In this document: positions 6,601-59,792 of the stretch, in pieces | Position numbering within the stretch: position 1 is the stretch's first letter | How the letters are laid out: every line of letters starts with the position of its first letter | NCBI GenBank assembly: GCA_034687125.1 | Contig: JAQGBZ010000242.1 | Coordinates: 1-64,000 of the forward strand | DNA from: Neelides folsomi | Taxonomy: Eukaryota; Arthropoda; Collembola; Neelipleona; Neelidae | Reading direction: 5' to 3' | Length of the DNA: 64,000 nt | The notes under the pieces: generated by a model | What the model was told of the DNA's origin: nothing | Database searches by the model: none | Seen by the model: only the letters and a program-made list of their open reading frames with translations | Program-made: the position numbers and the translations under genes

Positions 6601-9600
6601 TGTCCAAAGGCTTATGGTAAAACTTTCAAATATGAACCATCCTTTTTTATACGACTACCTAAACTAACTTACTCTCTTTTAACATTAAGTATGTGCACTA
6701 ATACATTTCTGAGGCTTATCATTAGTTAGAAGAAGCCATGTGTTTTATGTATTATAAAGGGAGTTAAAAGAATTGATGAAAAAGTTACCTGTTCTTCGTC
6801 AGGGTCTTCAACGTTGTTCATGAACTTCCGAATGTTTCCTTCTAAAGTGATGCCTTGTCTTTCGAGCTCCCGTTCTTTGACTTCAAGGTCCGCCAATTCC
6901 CTTTTGATCGCATCTTCAGGCAGCGGCTCGACTTTTCTCCGTGGCGGCGGAGCCCGACGCTTCTTCCGGTATTTCCCAAGGGAGGAATTGCTCTCGTGGT
7001 TCTTAAGCCCTTTCATTAACCCTGGCGGGGGCTTGATCACTTTTTGTTTCGCATCTTCCTTTTCCTTCATATTTTTTGGACTTACATTCCTCGGTTTCGG
7101 ACTTGGACTCCGTGGAGTTCGAATTCGAGTATTTTCTAAATTCCTAGGTGGACTTTTGCTAGAACTTCTTTGACTATTGGTTGCAGGGCTTGAAGATCGC
7201 GATCGTGGTTTAGTTCTTTCAGGCACGGAGACAGTCGAATTTCTCTCCATTGGAACAGGGACGGATTCTGCAGGGACTTGCGGGGCTTTCGGAGCTCTTC
7301 GTTTTGACCTCGGACTTGGAACGGGTCTTTTTGCCAAAATCTCCGAAGACTCAGGACTTAAAGGAGGCGGATTGTCAAACTTCTTACTTGGGACAGCCTT
7401 AAGGATTGAGATGGGGCTTTTAGGTATTGGTTTTAATTCAGGCGGTGGGACAGAAAAATTCGCTGCATTATTTCTAGAATTAAAAGTTGGAGGTGGAGGG
7501 GCGGGGCTTTTCCTCGGTTTCGGTTTCGGATTATTCGGATCTCCTAAATTGGCCTCTAAGGTTCTTTTTGCTGGAGTTGGAATGTGACTCTTTGGGATGG
7601 TTCGTGAAGGGAGATTGTGGGATTCTTCAGGCTCATCCTCATCATTTTCGAAAGGATTCTTTCCTATTGACTCACTTGAAGCGGCTCTTTCTTGCACACG
7701 CAGCGTTTCTTCTGATTCAAAAGGATTGAGCTCAGCAGGGTAATAGTCTTTATTAATCCATAATTGAATGGCGTTCGGCTTCGGCTTATCCTCTGTGTGG
7801 TTAACGAGAGAGTCAACCGGCTCGTCGTTGCACGACTCCTTCGACTCCTCCTCTCCTCTCTCAAACTCCAATTTACTAGGAACGGTACTTAACGAATTAT
7901 CACTTTCAACTTTGTTACCTTCACAGATTTCTTCATCTTCCTTCAATTCATTTTCCCCAACTTCTTCATTTTTCTTTATTTCAATTTCTTCATTTTTCCC
8001 TATTTCAATTCCTTCATTTCCCCTTACTTCAATTTCTTCATTTTTCTCTTCGGTAATTTCTACAATTTTCTGATCATTAATTTCTTCGTTTTTAATTTCA
8101 TCTTTTATTTCATTTACAATTTGATCACTTCCTTCATTCACAATTTCATTGACTTCATTTTCTTCATCTTCATCAAATGGATTATTATTAACTTCCTTAT
8201 TAATGTCTGAGAAGGGGAGTGAAGTTGTTGACACAGTCCCAAGAGAGGAATCTTCAATTGGTTCGTTTTGAGTGTCTGGGTCGTTGTTGATCGAAGGGGA
8301 ATGACTTCGTTTATGGAACTCGGCCTGACAGAGACTTTCAAGGCACATGAGAAGGCCTTCAGAACTCATGTCAGCCGTATGAGGATTCAAAACACAGCCA
8401 CAATTGAAACATCTAAAGCAGCTCCGATGAAAGAGCTTCTTCGCAAATAAAACCCGCTCCGAGATGAACACGGGGTTTTGACAAATTGCACAAAGAGAAG
8501 AAGTTGAGAGAAGAACAGGACGAGTGAGATGACGCTTGGACTCGGATTCGATTAATTCCCGATCGCTCATTTCCCCCAAGTCCCTTTTTCCTGCCCTACT
8601 CTCCTAAAATAATAATATTTGCATTTATAGTTTGGAAATTTAAGCACGCACTCGGTGTTTTTAAAACCCTTTTGGAATTGTAAAACTCTTTATGTTTGAT
8701 GTCATAAAATGATTTATGTGTGAACTAACATTAACATTAAGTGAACTATTAAAAGAAATATAAGTAGATAACAATGAACAACTCTGGTGATATTTTCAGA
8801 CTCACAAAAATAAGCACATGAATCTAAGACCCGTTATTACACAAACAAAGGTTAAAAATAATAACTATTAAATTGTGATCCTCCTCTGCAAATACGGCAT
8901 TATGAAAGGAATATAAATTATATTCCTTTATAAAAAATAGTTATACTTAAAAATTCCTTATACTTTTATGTCAATATTATTACACCATAGTGTATGTAAG
9001 AGTACCTAAAATGTGTTAAATATGAAATGGTGTATTTATTCAGTCTAACAAAAACCAAAGCTCCGAGTTGAACTCTGAGGAGACTCAGGACGGTAAAATG
9101 TCTATAAATGACGAAGCTGTTTTTTCTCTCACTTCCTTCGTCATTCTCCTCATCTTCACTCAATTAACCATTTAGCTCGACTTTTAGAGATCATTGCCGT
9201 GTGAAAGAAAAGGAGTTGTATAACATATAAAGCAAGACCAATCTTCAATCCACACGTGTGGAATAGAAGGATCGCATTTAAAGGCATTTCGAATCAAGCT
9301 CATTTCATAAACTGGTTATTTGTCTCAACATTTGAACTTTAAAGCAAATTACTTATATAACTTCTAATTTAACAGAATAATGATTCAAGTTGTGTCGAGA
9401 ATTTATTTTAAGTAAATCAATTGTTCAAGGTTCTTAATTTAACTATTCTTGTTTGATTGGAAAATTGTTTCAAGAAGAGCCAGAGCCGTATGATGTTAAA
9501 ACATCCTGTGGTTCTATTGTGTGTATTTTTATATCCAACATAATGGCTGAAAATGATAGTTAAATGGGAATTTGCTCAAATAGGCATGTACCTGATGATG

Positions 9601-26661: not shown

Positions 26662-32008
<5,347 letters not shown>

Positions 32009-50772: not shown

Positions 50773-52975
50773 TCAAACAATATTATTATTGTTAGTCAAC
50801 GATGAGAGGATGTTGGCGTTTGGGTCTTTATAAACAATTTCCACCAGTGTTGACTCTTCATTTTCGTTGAATTTCTGGGCATCTTGCTTATTTTTAAGAA
50901 TCAACTTCTCGAGCTCAATTCCTTCCCAGTAAACTTTCCCACAGGCGTCGCAAATGTAAAAGTAATCAATGTGGTTGATCAATCCAAGTGGAACTCGACT
51001 TAAATCAATTGCCGCCTCTGTAATATTAATTACCAAAATAAATATACTTACCATTTAGAGTAAATAAATTAAATATTGTAGTTATTTGAAATCTGTATGA
51101 TAAGAATTATATTATTAAATAAAGTGCTATGCTTGGGATAAAACCAAATATTTTCTCAATGGTACATGTAAAGCATGTTAAACCTTTTCTTGTTAGAAAT
51201 TTCTTATTTTCTGAATCTAGCTTGAGGCGCGTTGCGCTTATGAGCTTCCATTTCTTCTGATATCGTCCGCCGTAATTGAGCGAAGAAGGAACGGTTTCAT
51301 CTTCTATTGAATCCAATCGCTTCATATCACTTTCCCTCCTTGGCTTCCTCGCAGGGTTTTCCTTCATTACGAGCTTCTTCATGTCTTCAGGTGAGATGTC
51401 GATGAAAACTTCTTCATTGCAATTCTGACAACGTGTGAACACATCTGCTTCAAGAACGAGAATATTAAAATAGGCCAATACTTCACGAAGCTGCTCCAAT
51501 ATTGATCCAGATTGAACATCATAACATTGTTCAGAAGGAAGAGCTGCCGAGATCTATAAACAATATTAACAAAAGTTCTAGTATACACCCATTATAGATT
51601 TCATGATTGTTTTAGAATTTAGAAACTTTAATTTTTAATAGTACATTGTTCTTTATTTATTTAAGATTTTTGAATGCAAAGTTATTAACTATACTGAAGG
51701 CAGCCCCTTGAGTTAAAACAACTCTTCCTTCGGTCATTGCGTAATTTGCGCATCTGATATGAGATTCATTTTGGAATATACCAGTCGTATCAATTCCACA
51801 TGCTCGTAATTGTTTGGCTAACCCTTTAATTTAAATTACATAATTGGTAATTAAATTAAAATTACATAAATAGAATAATTAAACATAATTAAAATATATA
51901 TTAATTTTATATACTATTAATTTTTTTTATAAAACCTCGTAACATATTGTCGCAAATAAATTTAAAAGACTCCACATATTTCTTCTCAACATTTGGACTC
52001 GAAATTGAGATTTTCCTTCTATTTTGATCAGGTTTTCGGTTATTGGCCACAGCCACTGTGCTCACAATGTCAAAAGCAGTTGAATTGTTTTCCGTTTCAA
52101 CACTTGCGAAAGTCTTTTGACTCATTAAATGATTTTCGATTATGGACTTTACGTCAATGTGAGATTTCCGGGATTTCAATTTCAAAGATTTGAGAACCTC
52201 CATAAGAGCTGCAGTTTCTGCGACAGCGTATTGAATTTGCTCTTTTCTTAAAGGACGACGTTCCCAGTTTGAATATTGCTCATCTTTCTTGATGGCAAAT
52301 CCCAAGTTCAGATAAATCATTTCGAGCAATCCAGCTTCTTCTGAACTTTCTATAAAATCCAATTAATAAATTCATTTAATAATGCAGCATTTTTTTAAAA
52401 TAATAATTTATTGGAAAAAATTAATATGCAAAATATGTAATTGATTACGTTTATTGCCAAATTGTTAAAACCTTTTCGCGAAGAATAAAAGTAAGGATCC
52501 AATCTCAATATTTCGTTATTTATGATATCAAGGTCCAATGTATGAATGAATTCATTTTTCATTTTTTCCCATTGTGGAACTGTTTTTGATAGCATTGTGA
52601 TGATATTGTTAGCTTCATACGTCACTTTCACGATTCTCTAAATTATCAATCTTAATGAATCACTAATTCTACCATAATTGTAAATTGGTTCACCTTGCTA
52701 GCAAAGAAAAATTTGTAAAGTTCATTCCATCTATGGTTCTTTTGATCGGAGTTGGCTCTCAGGGCTATCGTGTCAATAATGTAGATCTGACTTCCCAATG
52801 AAATCAGAATGAGTGGAACTCCTCGTTTCTCTGCGAGCAACGGCTTCCATTTCACGTTGAATCCCACGTAGACGCAATTGTTCGCATCGTGCTCAACTAT
52901 TACAAGGGACGCCATCAATTGCTGAAGCAATTCGTCAATACCTTGATTATTTGTTATAATACGAGCCTTGTCCAT
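50773..52975 (-). CDS. EXD3-like: Exonuclease mut-7/EXD3-like protein, catalytic residues altered
   Basis: Six exons: 52975-52694, 52637-52472, 52349-51936, 51823-51690, 51553-51145 and 51017-50773. Phases agree, 549 aa, much shorter than mut-7 or human EXD3 (about 900) because the helical N-terminal region is absent. Residues 25-230 form a DEDDy 3'-5' exonuclease fold (IYIIDTIAL, QYSNWERRPLRKEQIQYA). Residues 275-545 form the Mut7-C domain (CDNMLRGLAKQLRACGID, then C-x2-C pairs of a zinc ribbon ending FYICDACGKVYWEG). The usual D-x-E of ExoI is N40-V-K42. The ExoIII Y-x3-D is Y190-x3-E194. The Mut7-C L-T-x-D is L-T-Q-G327. It is therefore probably inactive or changed in activity. Mut-7 acts in small-RNA silencing in worms. 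The exon 2 donor was chosen by phase. Confidence 0.85.
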
Positions 52976-53871
52976 TATCTTAATTTAACTTAATATTTAT
53001 AGATTAAAAAAATTGTCAAAATTAATAAAATATTTAAAAAATATTTAAAAAAAATCAAGTGACTTAAAAACAAATAAATCTGTAAAATTCCCTTGTATAC
53101 GATCATTATGTTAATGATATAATATGCTCAATGAAACTTATGAAATGATATTTATAATGAAATTTTAATGAACCAACAATAAAATAAGTATTGTAATATG
53201 AATAAGTTAACCAAAGGTACAGAACCGTTCACGAGGCGGCGAGGATCTTCGCATTATTGGAGCATTATAGAAAAATCTTTCACGACATCTATGAAAGAAA
53301 TTTATAATTTGCATTTAGTCTAAAAATTGATAGATTGCAATAAAAAAGTGTGGTACACTGCCCCAACTGATGTTTGATCGGATAGGCTTGGCCTTTCATG
53401 TGTTTGGTGGCAAATTATTACCTTATAAGGCTATTTATAAGATTATTAAGACTCCTTAATAGTCTTACATAATAGATTATTGTAATAATTCAATACTTGG
53501 ACATAAGATACGTAATACATAAACAATTTACTTCAATTCTTCTAAAAAGATTTGACAGGATTTAATTCAAGATAATATTTTAATCCATCTATAATAAGTA
53601 CATGTGTTATTGATTAAAGTTTAAAATAATTTATGGAAATTAAGAAGTCAAGCTGAAAAAGTTCAAGCGTAAGCTATCAGTAAAAAGAGCTTATTCATTG
53701 ACGCAAACTTAACAATAATGAAATATTATTTTAACCAATAGGATTAACTCAACATCTGTTTCATTAACTAAAAACATTTTAGATAATGAATAGCGTCTAT
53801 TTAAACGAAATGCTATTTGGGTCTTGGATCTATTCATTTCTTTTGTTCTTCCTGTAATTATCAAAGTTAAA
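52976..53871. other. Divergent intergenic region
   Basis: Between the mut-7-like gene (minus) and AChBP-like A (plus). AT-rich, no gene. A weak TATTTAAAC at about 53797 could be the TATA element of AChBP-like A. Confidence 0.5.
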
Positions 53872-55293
53872 ATGAAAATGATTTGTTTCATTGTGGGAGT
53901 ATTATTTTTGGGATCAGCCCTTGCAACTGAAGACACAACACACGCTGGTAAAATTAAAATTGCATCTCTTTACAATATTTTATTTTTGTCTCCAACAATA
54001 AGTTTTAGCATCGATTTGACACTTTCCAATGAGAAAAATCTATTTACAAAAATCTATAATATAATTTATACAAAGATGTTGCTGGACCAGGGCCTTATGG
54101 AAACGCTGCAGGACGGGCTGAGCTGAGGAAATTCCTATTAGGAAATTACGACCGAATGAACATTCCCGATAACGTTGCTGTCAAACTTGGAGTCAACCTT
54201 TTAGCATTGGAACTTGTAAATTAATACTCCTTTTCCATATATATATATATAATATATATTTAACCAATTACAATTTTGTTCTAGATTTATCTTTTATAAT
54301 ATATTAGAATGTAAATATTTTAAACTTTGAATTTCATAAAATTTAGGATCCGGTTAAAGGAACGGCTGAAGGTAACACATGGGTCCAAATGGTAAATTTT
54401 TTTATTATTGTATTATTTATACTATTGGAAAGATTATTGGAATATTGGATTATTGGAAAGTTTCTTCTTCCTCTCTTCTTTAATATGTTTGTTTATTAAG
54501 TTATTAATCCAAAATTTGCTGTTGTTAAATTGTTAGCTCTGGAATGACGCAAGACTGAAATGGGACAATGAAACCACTGGAATAAATACCTTGCGATTTG
54601 GAGCTGATGAAGTTTGGAAACCAGACATTACTTTGTTCAACAGGTAATTTCAAAAACGCGTTTTTCTAACATTATTGTATGTAGATAAATTATAAAATTT
54701 ATTCTTAAATAATGTTTGGTATCATTACATTTTAATCATAAATAGCGCAAACATGAAGGACATGATGAGCTGCTCGAACACAAATGTCGTAGTTTTCTCA
54801 ACTGGTGATATCATTTGGGTAATCAACTTAAACTCTGACATACAATTTTTTAACGAACCGTCCAATTCAGCATTTTTTAATTACTTTAATTTTTAGGTTC
54901 CACCATGCCATATGTCTGCTCATTGCAATATCACGACAAATCAAGATTTGCAATTGGCCACTGAACAAACTTGCACCTTCAAGTTGGGCTCATGGACTTA
55001 TGATCAATATTCAATGGATGTCGGTTTTTATCAAGACGTAAGACATTTTAAATTTCATTATTATCAATATTAAATTAAAAATTAACATTTTAATTAACAT
55101 AATGTCATGTTTGATTTTACAGAAAGCTTATATGCAAACTGAATATTTCGGCTCAAGAAAATGGAAAATTGTGTCCAACGAAGCTGTAAGAACTTCAACT
55201 GTTTATTCCTGCTGTGCTGAACCATATCTTGACATTACATACAAATTCACCGTTCACCGAATCCTGAGCGACAACTCTTGCCACCAAGAATAA
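53872..55293 (+). CDS. Secreted acetylcholine-binding-protein-like A (nicotinic receptor ligand-binding domain)
   Basis: Seven exons: 53872-53947, 54076-54215, 54347-54391, 54537-54643, 54746-54818, 54897-55037 and 55123-55293. Phases agree, 250 aa. A signal peptide (MKMICFIVGVLFLGSALA) leads directly into a Cys-loop ligand-binding domain. The N-terminal helix contains LGNYDRMNIPDN. Loop D is VQMLWNDARLKW. Loop A is VWKPDITLFN, with Phe where receptors usually have Tyr. Loop B is GSWTYD. Loop C is YSCCAEPYLDITY with the vicinal cysteines. The Cys-loop has 15 residues between its cysteines instead of 13. Extra cysteines occur in MMSCSN and VPPCH. The protein ends just after the domain, with no transmembrane segment, so it is soluble and extracellular like molluscan AChBP. 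Ligand binding is inferred. Confidence 0.9.
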
Positions 55294-56001
55294 GCTATAT
55301 TTTTAATACCAAAATAACAATGGTTAAATTCCAAATAATTGATAAAATAATTAGGAAAATTTGTTATTGTCATAATTAGGAATATTTGATAGTTATATAA
55401 ATTACATTATTGTACATGATATAATTAAAGAGCAAAAAATTAATAATAACAGCTCATTAAAATGTAAAGTCTCAACAAAAGGACCTTGGCCAATTGAGGA
55501 CAAAGTGATTAAAATTGCAATGTCAAAAAGAGATTCATATGGAAATTGTTTATGATTGGAAGTCAATTGATTTTAATTCTCATTTCATGTGTTTTGAACG
55601 TGTCTTTGATCCATCGCACTGGATTTATTCATAATAAATATTTAAATAACATAATCTTTATACAAGATGTGTTTTCTCCTCTTCTACTTTTCCATTGGTG
55701 ATGTTTGATCCTGGCAAATTAATGGCTTTGTTTATTCGGCACAGACACTCAACTTCATACAGACACCGAATTAAAAAATTTTTAAACGAACACAATAGCT
55801 TTTTGTATTTTAACTTTAAAGCAAGAATTAAAGAGCAAATATAACAATGATACAGTGCAGTGTATTTAAATACACATTTTTACTGTACAGTATAATGTGC
55901 TTTAATCATCGGCTTATATTGACAAAGTTAAGCATTGTTATATTGATCTTACTAATGATGTGTCGGTCTCATTGAGCCAATGAGGCCAATTAAAAGAATA
56001 A
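55294..56001. other. Spacer between the tandem AChBP-like genes
   Basis: AT-rich 3' flank of gene A and upstream region of gene B. No exon seen. A TATA box follows at 56002. Confidence 0.55.
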
Positions 56002-56027
56002 TATAAAAGAGCATGGACAGGGTCAGT
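56002..56027 (+). promoter_or_regulatory. TATA box and TCAGT initiator of AChBP-like B
   Basis: TATAAAAG at 56002-56009 and an arthropod-type initiator TCAGT at 56023-56027. The spacing is slightly shorter than usual. They lie 65-90 bp upstream of the ATG at 56092. Confidence 0.6.
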
Positions 56028-56091
56028 GGAAATCAATTGGAACTGGAGTTTTCATAATCCTCACCTTGTTCGTTCAAATTTAGCATTCAAG

Positions 56092-57514
56092 ATGCGAGTT
56101 TGCATTACGCTCGCCGTTTCTTTGCTCATAATCGGATTTGCATACTCCATCCCCACAGACGACAATAAAGGTTTAACACATAATTTAATCAACATATTTA
56201 TTTAATATTTGAATATGTCATTAAAATATATTATAATTATTCATATTCTGAAAGATTTCGAGAATGTTATTGAAGAGGTCAAGAAGACAAATGACGAAAA
56301 ATTGAACAAATTCGGACGGGAAATGACAAGCAACGGCAATGCGGAACAACGGTCGAAAGTTAGGGAATTGGTTTTGTCAAAATATGACAAAATGAACATT
56401 CCTGATGATCCAAATGTCTCATTTGGAGCAACTATTTTACACATTGACATTGTAAGACTTTGAAATTAAAATTTAAGTAATTTCTTATATACAGAATTAA
56501 AATTAGATATTGTATTACTAAATTATTTTATTTTCTTACAATAGTTTATTAATTGATCTAAAATAATAATAAAATTACATTTATTCTTTAGGACGAATCA
56601 AGGCGAACTGTTGAGTCAGATGTCTGGTTTAAAATGGTATGAAAATTATAAGTTAAGCTATATGTTAAGCTAACAAAACTAAAAATTATAATTATAAGCA
56701 AAATAAAATTAAAATAATATTCTTTTTAATATTTGAAAGATGCAAAATTATTGATTTATTTTATTAAAAAATAATTAAATTAAAATTAAATAATTAAATT
56801 TTTTAATATTAATTAAAATTTAAAGACTTGGACAGACTCGCGCCTTAAATGGAACAAAGAAGAAATGGGCGTCAGTCATATGAGATTTGGGCCCGACGAA
56901 GTTTGGAAACCAGATCTCACGCTTTATAATAGGCACATTCCTATATTAAATTCTAATCATTTTAATCAAAATTCTAAAAAATTAAATAATTAATATCAAT
57001 TTTGGAATACTCTTTAGCCGAATGAACGGAAATGCCATTGAGCAATGCAAAGACACAAACACGATCGTTTACAACACCGGGATGGTTCTTTGGGTTCCTC
57101 CATGTCACATCTCGGCCAATTGCGACCTCACATTCTCAAGAGGAAATGTTTTGACTCCGGATCAAAATTGCTATTTTAAATTTGGTTCTTGGACTTATGA
57201 TGGATACATTATGGATTTGAACTTTTACAATAAAACGGTTAGATTTAAATTAACTAAATTACATATTTTTTCTTAATTAAAATAATTGATTTTTTAATTA
57301 TGGAATCTTTTATTAATTAATTCAAAATATATTTAAAATTTAGCAACCTCAAATGGATATCGACCACATGGGAAAGAATTCACAATGGCGAATTACAAAG
57401 AACGTTGCTGAATTGAACAAGAAGTTTTACTCATGTTGCAAAGAACCTTACTTGAGCATCAACTTTAACTTCACACTCTCAAGAGAATTTGAAAATGATA
57501 ATTGCAAAATTTAA
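56092..57514 (+). CDS. Secreted acetylcholine-binding-protein-like B
   Basis: Six exons: 56092-56170, 56255-56451, 56592-56636, 56826-56932, 57018-57237 and 57344-57514, 272 aa. Tandem paralog of gene A: exons of 45, 107 and 171 nt match exactly, while A's exons 5 and 6 are one exon here. Signal peptide MRVCITLAVSLLIIGFAYS. Loop D is WFKMTWTDSRLKW, loop A VWKPDLTLYN (Tyr kept), loop B GSWTYD, loop C FYSCCKEPYLSINF. The Cys-loop spacing is again 15, and the extra cysteines (EQCKD, VPPCH) are shared with A. A longer N-terminal helix (about residues 27-75) precedes the domain. No membrane segment follows. The fourth intron starts GC rather than GT (AG then GCACAT); the conserved exon length supports this. 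AATAAA at 57583. Confidence 0.9.

Positions 57515-58206: not shown

Positions 58207-59792
<1,586 letters not shown>

Follow-up and report, generated by a model that had tools for sequence, protein, structure and literature searches.

The window analyzed here is a stretch of 64,000 nucleotides on contig C242 of the Neelides folsomi assembly (75.1 Mb, 840 contigs). Two neighboring genes on its plus strand encode ligand-binding domains of the nicotinic receptor type, and the predicted interval 53872..57514 fits them to the base, position 53872 being the start codon (ATG) of gene 1 (g1) and 57514 the final base of the stop codon of gene 2 (g2). The g1 gene (53872..55293) has seven exons (53872-53947, 54076-54215, 54347-54391, 54537-54643, 54746-54818, 54897-55037, and 55123-55293, the last including the stop codon), separated throughout by GT-AG introns, and encodes 250 amino acids. 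The g2 gene (56092..57514) has six exons (56092-56170, 56255-56451, 56592-56636, 56826-56932 with a GC donor, 57018-57237, and 57344-57514 including the stop codon) and encodes 272 amino acids. In spliced alignments with a profile that includes g1 and g2 themselves, the two genes scored 527 and 636, and none of 100 dinucleotide shuffles exceeded 38; with a profile built solely from human alpha-7 and alpha-6 they scored 270 and 275.5, and none of 100 shuffles exceeded 56. The introns within the domain were recovered by both profiles, including the human one; the first intron, after the signal-peptide exon, is not covered by the profile and was placed by reading frame and splice signals alone.

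The pair had been described as lying beside other secreted genes, which is borne out for one neighbor and should be read as applying to that neighbor only: a papain-type cysteine protease gene (58207-59792) that follows g2 in the same orientation has a signal-like first exon and PF00112 matches on exons 59072-59365 and 59526-59792. Elsewhere in the window lie a Mut7-like exonuclease on the minus strand (51107-52984; Mut7-C match under the cut-off), a DEAD-box helicase, RecQ-like by eye (27970-29577), a LIM-domain protein (6726-8603), and frames with PDCD2_C and zf-MYND (343-1715).

A family of at least four genes without a channel domain

A genome-wide search of the same assembly with PF02931 gave 76 exon-level matches, and searches with individual proteins revealed two further genes that are built alike, one at C822:7826-9423 on the minus strand and one at C358:6883-8113 on the plus strand. 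Single-protein searches of the assembly with g1, g2, and the C358 protein yielded no fifth gene of this design; as the search scores the best candidates only, four is a minimum. Over the aligned length, g2 and the C822 protein are 61% identical, the C358 protein is 45% identical to each of these two, and g1 shares 38 to 40% with the others, including 40% with g2. In a tree of 25 rows the four genes form one clade (96/91), apart from this genome's own receptor subunits. Within this clade, g1 is outermost and g2 stands beside the C822 gene, so the tandem pair does not stem from a recent duplication. The notion of a tandem pair thus stands as to adjacency, but the two genes belong to a family of at least four and are not each other's closest relatives.

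A mitochondrial locus of the assembly (PF00115 match) has the order trnI, trnQ, trnM, nad2-like frame, trnW, trnC, trnY, cox1, trnL(taa), cox2-like frame, trnK, and trnD, with nad2 and cox2 named by eye; trnL(taa) between cox1 and cox2 we take to mark Pancrustacea, and this order is presumably pancrustacean. The position of trnL(taa) led us to discard a chelicerate source, which the small genome and the existence of a spider AChBP had initially suggested. The DIOX_N domain (PF14226), to our knowledge unusual in animals, has eight exon-level matches, on contigs C223, C54, C96, C346, and C318. Isopenicillin-synthase-like genes are known from springtails, and these matches would fit such genes; a condensation domain gave one weak match in the assembly, under the cut-off.

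The sole Pfam family in the g1 and g2 proteins is PF02931, the nicotinic ligand-binding domain, present in full (6.7e-38 in g1, 1.2e-39 in g2), so that both consist of a single recognized domain, as do acetylcholine-binding proteins (AChBPs). The predicted signal peptides are supported in both genes by a signal-like hydrophobic N-terminus encoded on the first exon (53872..53947 in g1, 56092..56170 in g2, both on the plus strand), recognized by eye and by Kyte-Doolittle (KD) maxima over 19 residues of 2.0 in g1 and 2.2 in g2. Past residue 30 the maxima are 1.12 in g1 and 0.89 in g2, and in all four proteins of the family they are at most 1.12. A nicotinic receptor channel subunit has four membrane-spanning segments; the g1 and g2 proteins end before the first of these (M1), as had been predicted, the chain running 6 to 9 residues beyond the part that can be aligned with receptors and the stop codon falling where M1 would begin. 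The in-frame stop comes at roughly the same point, where the domain ends, in all four genes. The channel family PF02932 has 58 matches genome-wide, none of them on C242, C822, or C358; this absence alone is no proof, since two divergent receptors of this genome, on C185 and C57, also escape PF02932 despite the transmembrane-like frames downstream of them.

That PF02932 misses these two receptors is one of the points that would fit truncated, misread, or decaying receptor genes, their membrane exons missed or the genes themselves pseudogenes, a reading that we regard as very improbable. It could also draw on the single hydrophobic frame within the 798 bases 3' of g1 (KD 2.29, a value that 17 of 200 shuffles attain) and on the GC donor of g2; 3' of the remaining three genes, hydrophobicity is what shuffles give as well (98, 86, and 97 of 200). 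The shared position of the stop in four of four genes argues against it, as do the short intervals between each stop and the start codon that follows (798 bases between g1 and g2, 692 bases beyond g2) and the changes in cysteines common to the four genes and absent from the receptors. The GC-AG intron of g2 (56933..57017, plus strand) has an equivalent in the C822 gene, which also uses a GC donor at this place, so that the feature looks inherited rather than a sign of decay. This weak-donor intron is common to g2 and C822, with GT at the same place in g1 and C358. Reading frames are open across all exons, and by the NG86 method dN is below dS in the five of six pairs with values, no dS value being obtained for g1-g2; in the closest pair, g2-C822, dN is 0.22 against a dS of 1.47. 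As dS ranges from 1.47 to 2.8, near or beyond saturation, these values show constraint but not its strength.

Ligand site, cysteines, and relation to the receptors

In the alignment with Lymnaea AChBP, the four genes keep W53, Y89 (F in g1), W143, Y185, C187, C188, and Y192, which we take to be ligand-site residues. The aromatic box and the vicinal cysteine pair are thus complete in four of four genes except for phenylalanine in place of tyrosine in loop A of g1, as in AChBPs; the predicted loops A to D and the vicinal-Cys loop C of an alpha-type site are present in both g1 and g2, with the same proviso for g1. In g1, the Cys-loop and the loop B tryptophan are encoded at 54897..55037, and the last exon (55123..55293) carries loop C with the vicinal cysteine pair, the domain end, a C-terminal cysteine, and the stop. 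In g2, the exon at 57018..57237 encodes extra cysteines in E-x-C and PPC motifs together with the Cys-loop and the loop B tryptophan, and the last exon (57344..57514) the vicinal pair, a C-terminal cysteine, and the stop (all on the plus strand).

The Cys-loop is lengthened to 15 residues in all four genes; it has 13 in human alpha-7 and in each of the ten receptors of this genome that were listed, and the AChBPs of Lymnaea and Aplysia have a loop of 12. Its P-x-D motif, found in ten of these ten receptors, is missing from all four genes and from both mollusc AChBPs, so that none of the four has the 13-residue loop with a P-x-D core that is typical of receptor subunits. In receptors, it is with the P-x-D region that the loop contacts the channel, and the loss of this motif fits freedom from the membrane. 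Three further cysteines are common to the four genes, located before loop E, in the PPC motif, and near the C-terminus, which brings the mature chain to seven cysteines in each case (those of the signal peptide excluded). As this number is odd, at least one cysteine must be unpaired or have its partner in a different chain. This suggests that subunits or rings may be joined covalently, as has been proposed for the pentamers of Biomphalaria BgAChBP2, which also has an odd cysteine (PMC3423370).

The altered Cys-loop and the extra cysteines, which indicate release from receptor constraints, could also accompany a soluble domain repurposed for non-nicotinic ligands, such as mineral or matrix binding of the kind known from mollusc AChBP relatives that bind amorphous calcium carbonate; a di-pentameric variant binding calcium carbonate is named in the Biomphalaria paper (PMC3423370). 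A disused site would be expected to lose its residues, and their completeness in all four genes (with the single Phe for Tyr in g1) makes repurposing unlikely in our judgment, though it deserves some weight.

The four genes and most receptor models have introns in common at columns 31 and 46 of the profile, both in phase 0, and at column 81, in phase 2; the exceptions are C185, which lacks 81, C65, which lacks 46, C115, with 33 instead of 31, and C21b and C566b, whose models do not reach the first. The last intron, in phase 0, is at 154-155 in the four genes, at 154 in C173a2, at 157 in C173a1 and C57, and at 146 in six canonical models, C185 having no late intron, unlike the other divergent receptors. 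This late-intron match is suggestive only, because it lies in a gap-rich region and the profile includes the four genes.

Such introns bear on whether the genes are contaminating DNA of another animal, for instance a mollusc, a possibility that the original prediction had itself named and that appears extremely unlikely. AChBPs are best known from molluscs, and base composition differs somewhat among the contigs (GC of 0.32 in the window, 0.27 in the C822 and C358 stretches). What was found, however, is four copies over three contigs of one assembly, with three introns in common with the assembly's own receptors and a late intron close to that of its divergent receptors. In contrast, the Biomphalaria AChBP genes are described as having intron 1 alone in common with non-molluscan receptors (PMC3423370).

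For the tree, 19 of 26 spliced models were used; C173a was left out as the same gene as C173a2, and C173b, C157, C59, C237a, C237b, and C237c as anion-channel-like or poor models. Implausible ends were trimmed from C566b, C1b, C1c, C21a, C21b, C57, and the anion rows, and the in-frame stop of C173a1 was written as X. With the mollusc AChBPs included, the four genes group with them at 30/26 only. In a second tree, from which four more rows chosen after the first tree had been dropped as long (the two mollusc AChBPs, C185, and C1c), C57, C173a1, and C173a2 form the sister group of the four genes (89/93). With the mollusc AChBPs in the data, a union of the four genes with C57, C173a1, C173a2, and C185 survives the test (p-AU 0.417), which does not positively show it. 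A union with C21a, to which the four have the shortest path among the receptors, is rejected (p-AU 0.032).

The loci on C185, C57, and C173 (75-80 kb) were considered as further soluble genes, being free of PF02932 there, but transmembrane-like frames follow each of them, and they are therefore read as divergent receptors. C57, C173a1, and C173a2 resemble the four genes in their late phase-0 intron; together with C185 they differ from them in the downstream transmembrane-like frames and in a 13-residue Cys-loop with P-x-D. C173a1, whose model contains a single in-frame stop, and C173a2 lack the vicinal cysteine pair. On C566, a contig of 31 kb, two closely similar alpha-type receptor genes stand in tandem. 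An arachnid receptor survey describes a divergent group (PMC9219234), and our guess is that C57, C173a1, C173a2, and C185 correspond to the arthropod divergent/beta-3 group treated there.

Proposed function and comparison with known AChBPs

Judging from the sequences, the products of g1, g2, C822, and C358 are probably secreted, receptor-derived AChBP-like subunits, likely pentameric, that would bind nicotinic ligands and act as a buffer or toxin trap. The sequences show the gene structure, the domain, the site residues, the lack of a channel, the common Cys-loop and cysteines, and signs of constraint; export from the cell, pentamer formation, disulfide linkage, ligand, tissue, and role we infer. 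A nicotinic receptor gene, perhaps from the divergent subgroup of this genome, would have lost its membrane-spanning part, leaving a domain that is channel-less by sequence and may be secreted. By homology, such domains would assemble into pentamers with aromatic-box sites between subunits, and the odd cysteine could bond subunits or whole pentamers covalently. Given the retained aromatic box, the secreted rings may bind acetylcholine or other nicotinic ligands in the extracellular fluid, and would thereby either buffer acetylcholine or trap nicotinic toxins; the cholinergic buffer that was originally proposed is plausible.

A broader hypothesis, which we offer tentatively, is that the genes represent a pancrustacean multi-gene AChBP family that arose from a divergent nicotinic receptor independently of the molluscs, and whose products, linked through the odd cysteine, may form a multivalent trap for acetylcholine or for plant or microbial nicotinic toxins, including neonicotinoids. 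AChBPs have been described from molluscs, an annelid, and a spider, and they serve as the standard soluble models for nicotinic receptors; a pancrustacean family, if real, would provide a natural arthropod template closer to insecticide targets than the snail proteins. It would also be another case of a receptor head freed from its channel, would make the open question of AChBP purpose testable in an arthropod, and, as a ligand sink, could alter neonicotinoid sensitivity.

The original prediction described soluble AChBPs as best known from molluscs and annelids, to which an arthropod example, already reported from a spider, is to be added. No pancrustacean AChBP gene was recognized among the papers listed by the literature searches (titles and starts of abstracts, with most subscription papers outside their reach), and this partial coverage means that the absence is no proof of novelty; in two papers that name AChBP alongside a shrimp or earwigs, the protein used or cited is that of the snail.

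Among solved structures, the best relatives of both proteins are vertebrate nicotinic receptor alpha subunits, with the Capitella, Aplysia, and other AChBPs scoring lower (in the top 60 out of 181 and 167 matches, respectively). The soluble AChBP of the annelid Capitella teleta (4afg) is among the relatives of both proteins in the PDB but lies outside the rows of the tree, and g1 scores higher against the vertebrate alpha subunits. The gastropod AChBPs (Lymnaea, Aplysia, Biomphalaria) likewise consist of a secreted ligand-binding domain alone, with an aromatic box and a vicinal cysteine pair. Those of Lymnaea and Aplysia lack P-x-D as the four genes do, although their Cys-loop is shorter; the extra cysteines of the gastropod proteins differ from those described here, no supported clade unites the two groups, and their introns point away from a shared origin. 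Biomphalaria AChBP1 has phenylalanine in loop A, as does g1, and the roles discussed in that paper are suppression of cholinergic transmission, neutralization of phytotoxins, and, for one variant, calcium carbonate binding (PMC3423370). The sole arthropod AChBP reported in the searchable papers is CsAChBP (KT183363) of the spider Cupiennius salei, before which, according to its report, AChBPs had been known only from molluscs and one annelid (PMC4569296). CsAChBP has 246 amino acids and, like the four proteins, lacks a transmembrane region and has a lengthened Cys-loop; it differs in being a single chelicerate sequence with a loop of 16 rather than 15 residues, the likeness being drawn from its published description (PMC4569296).
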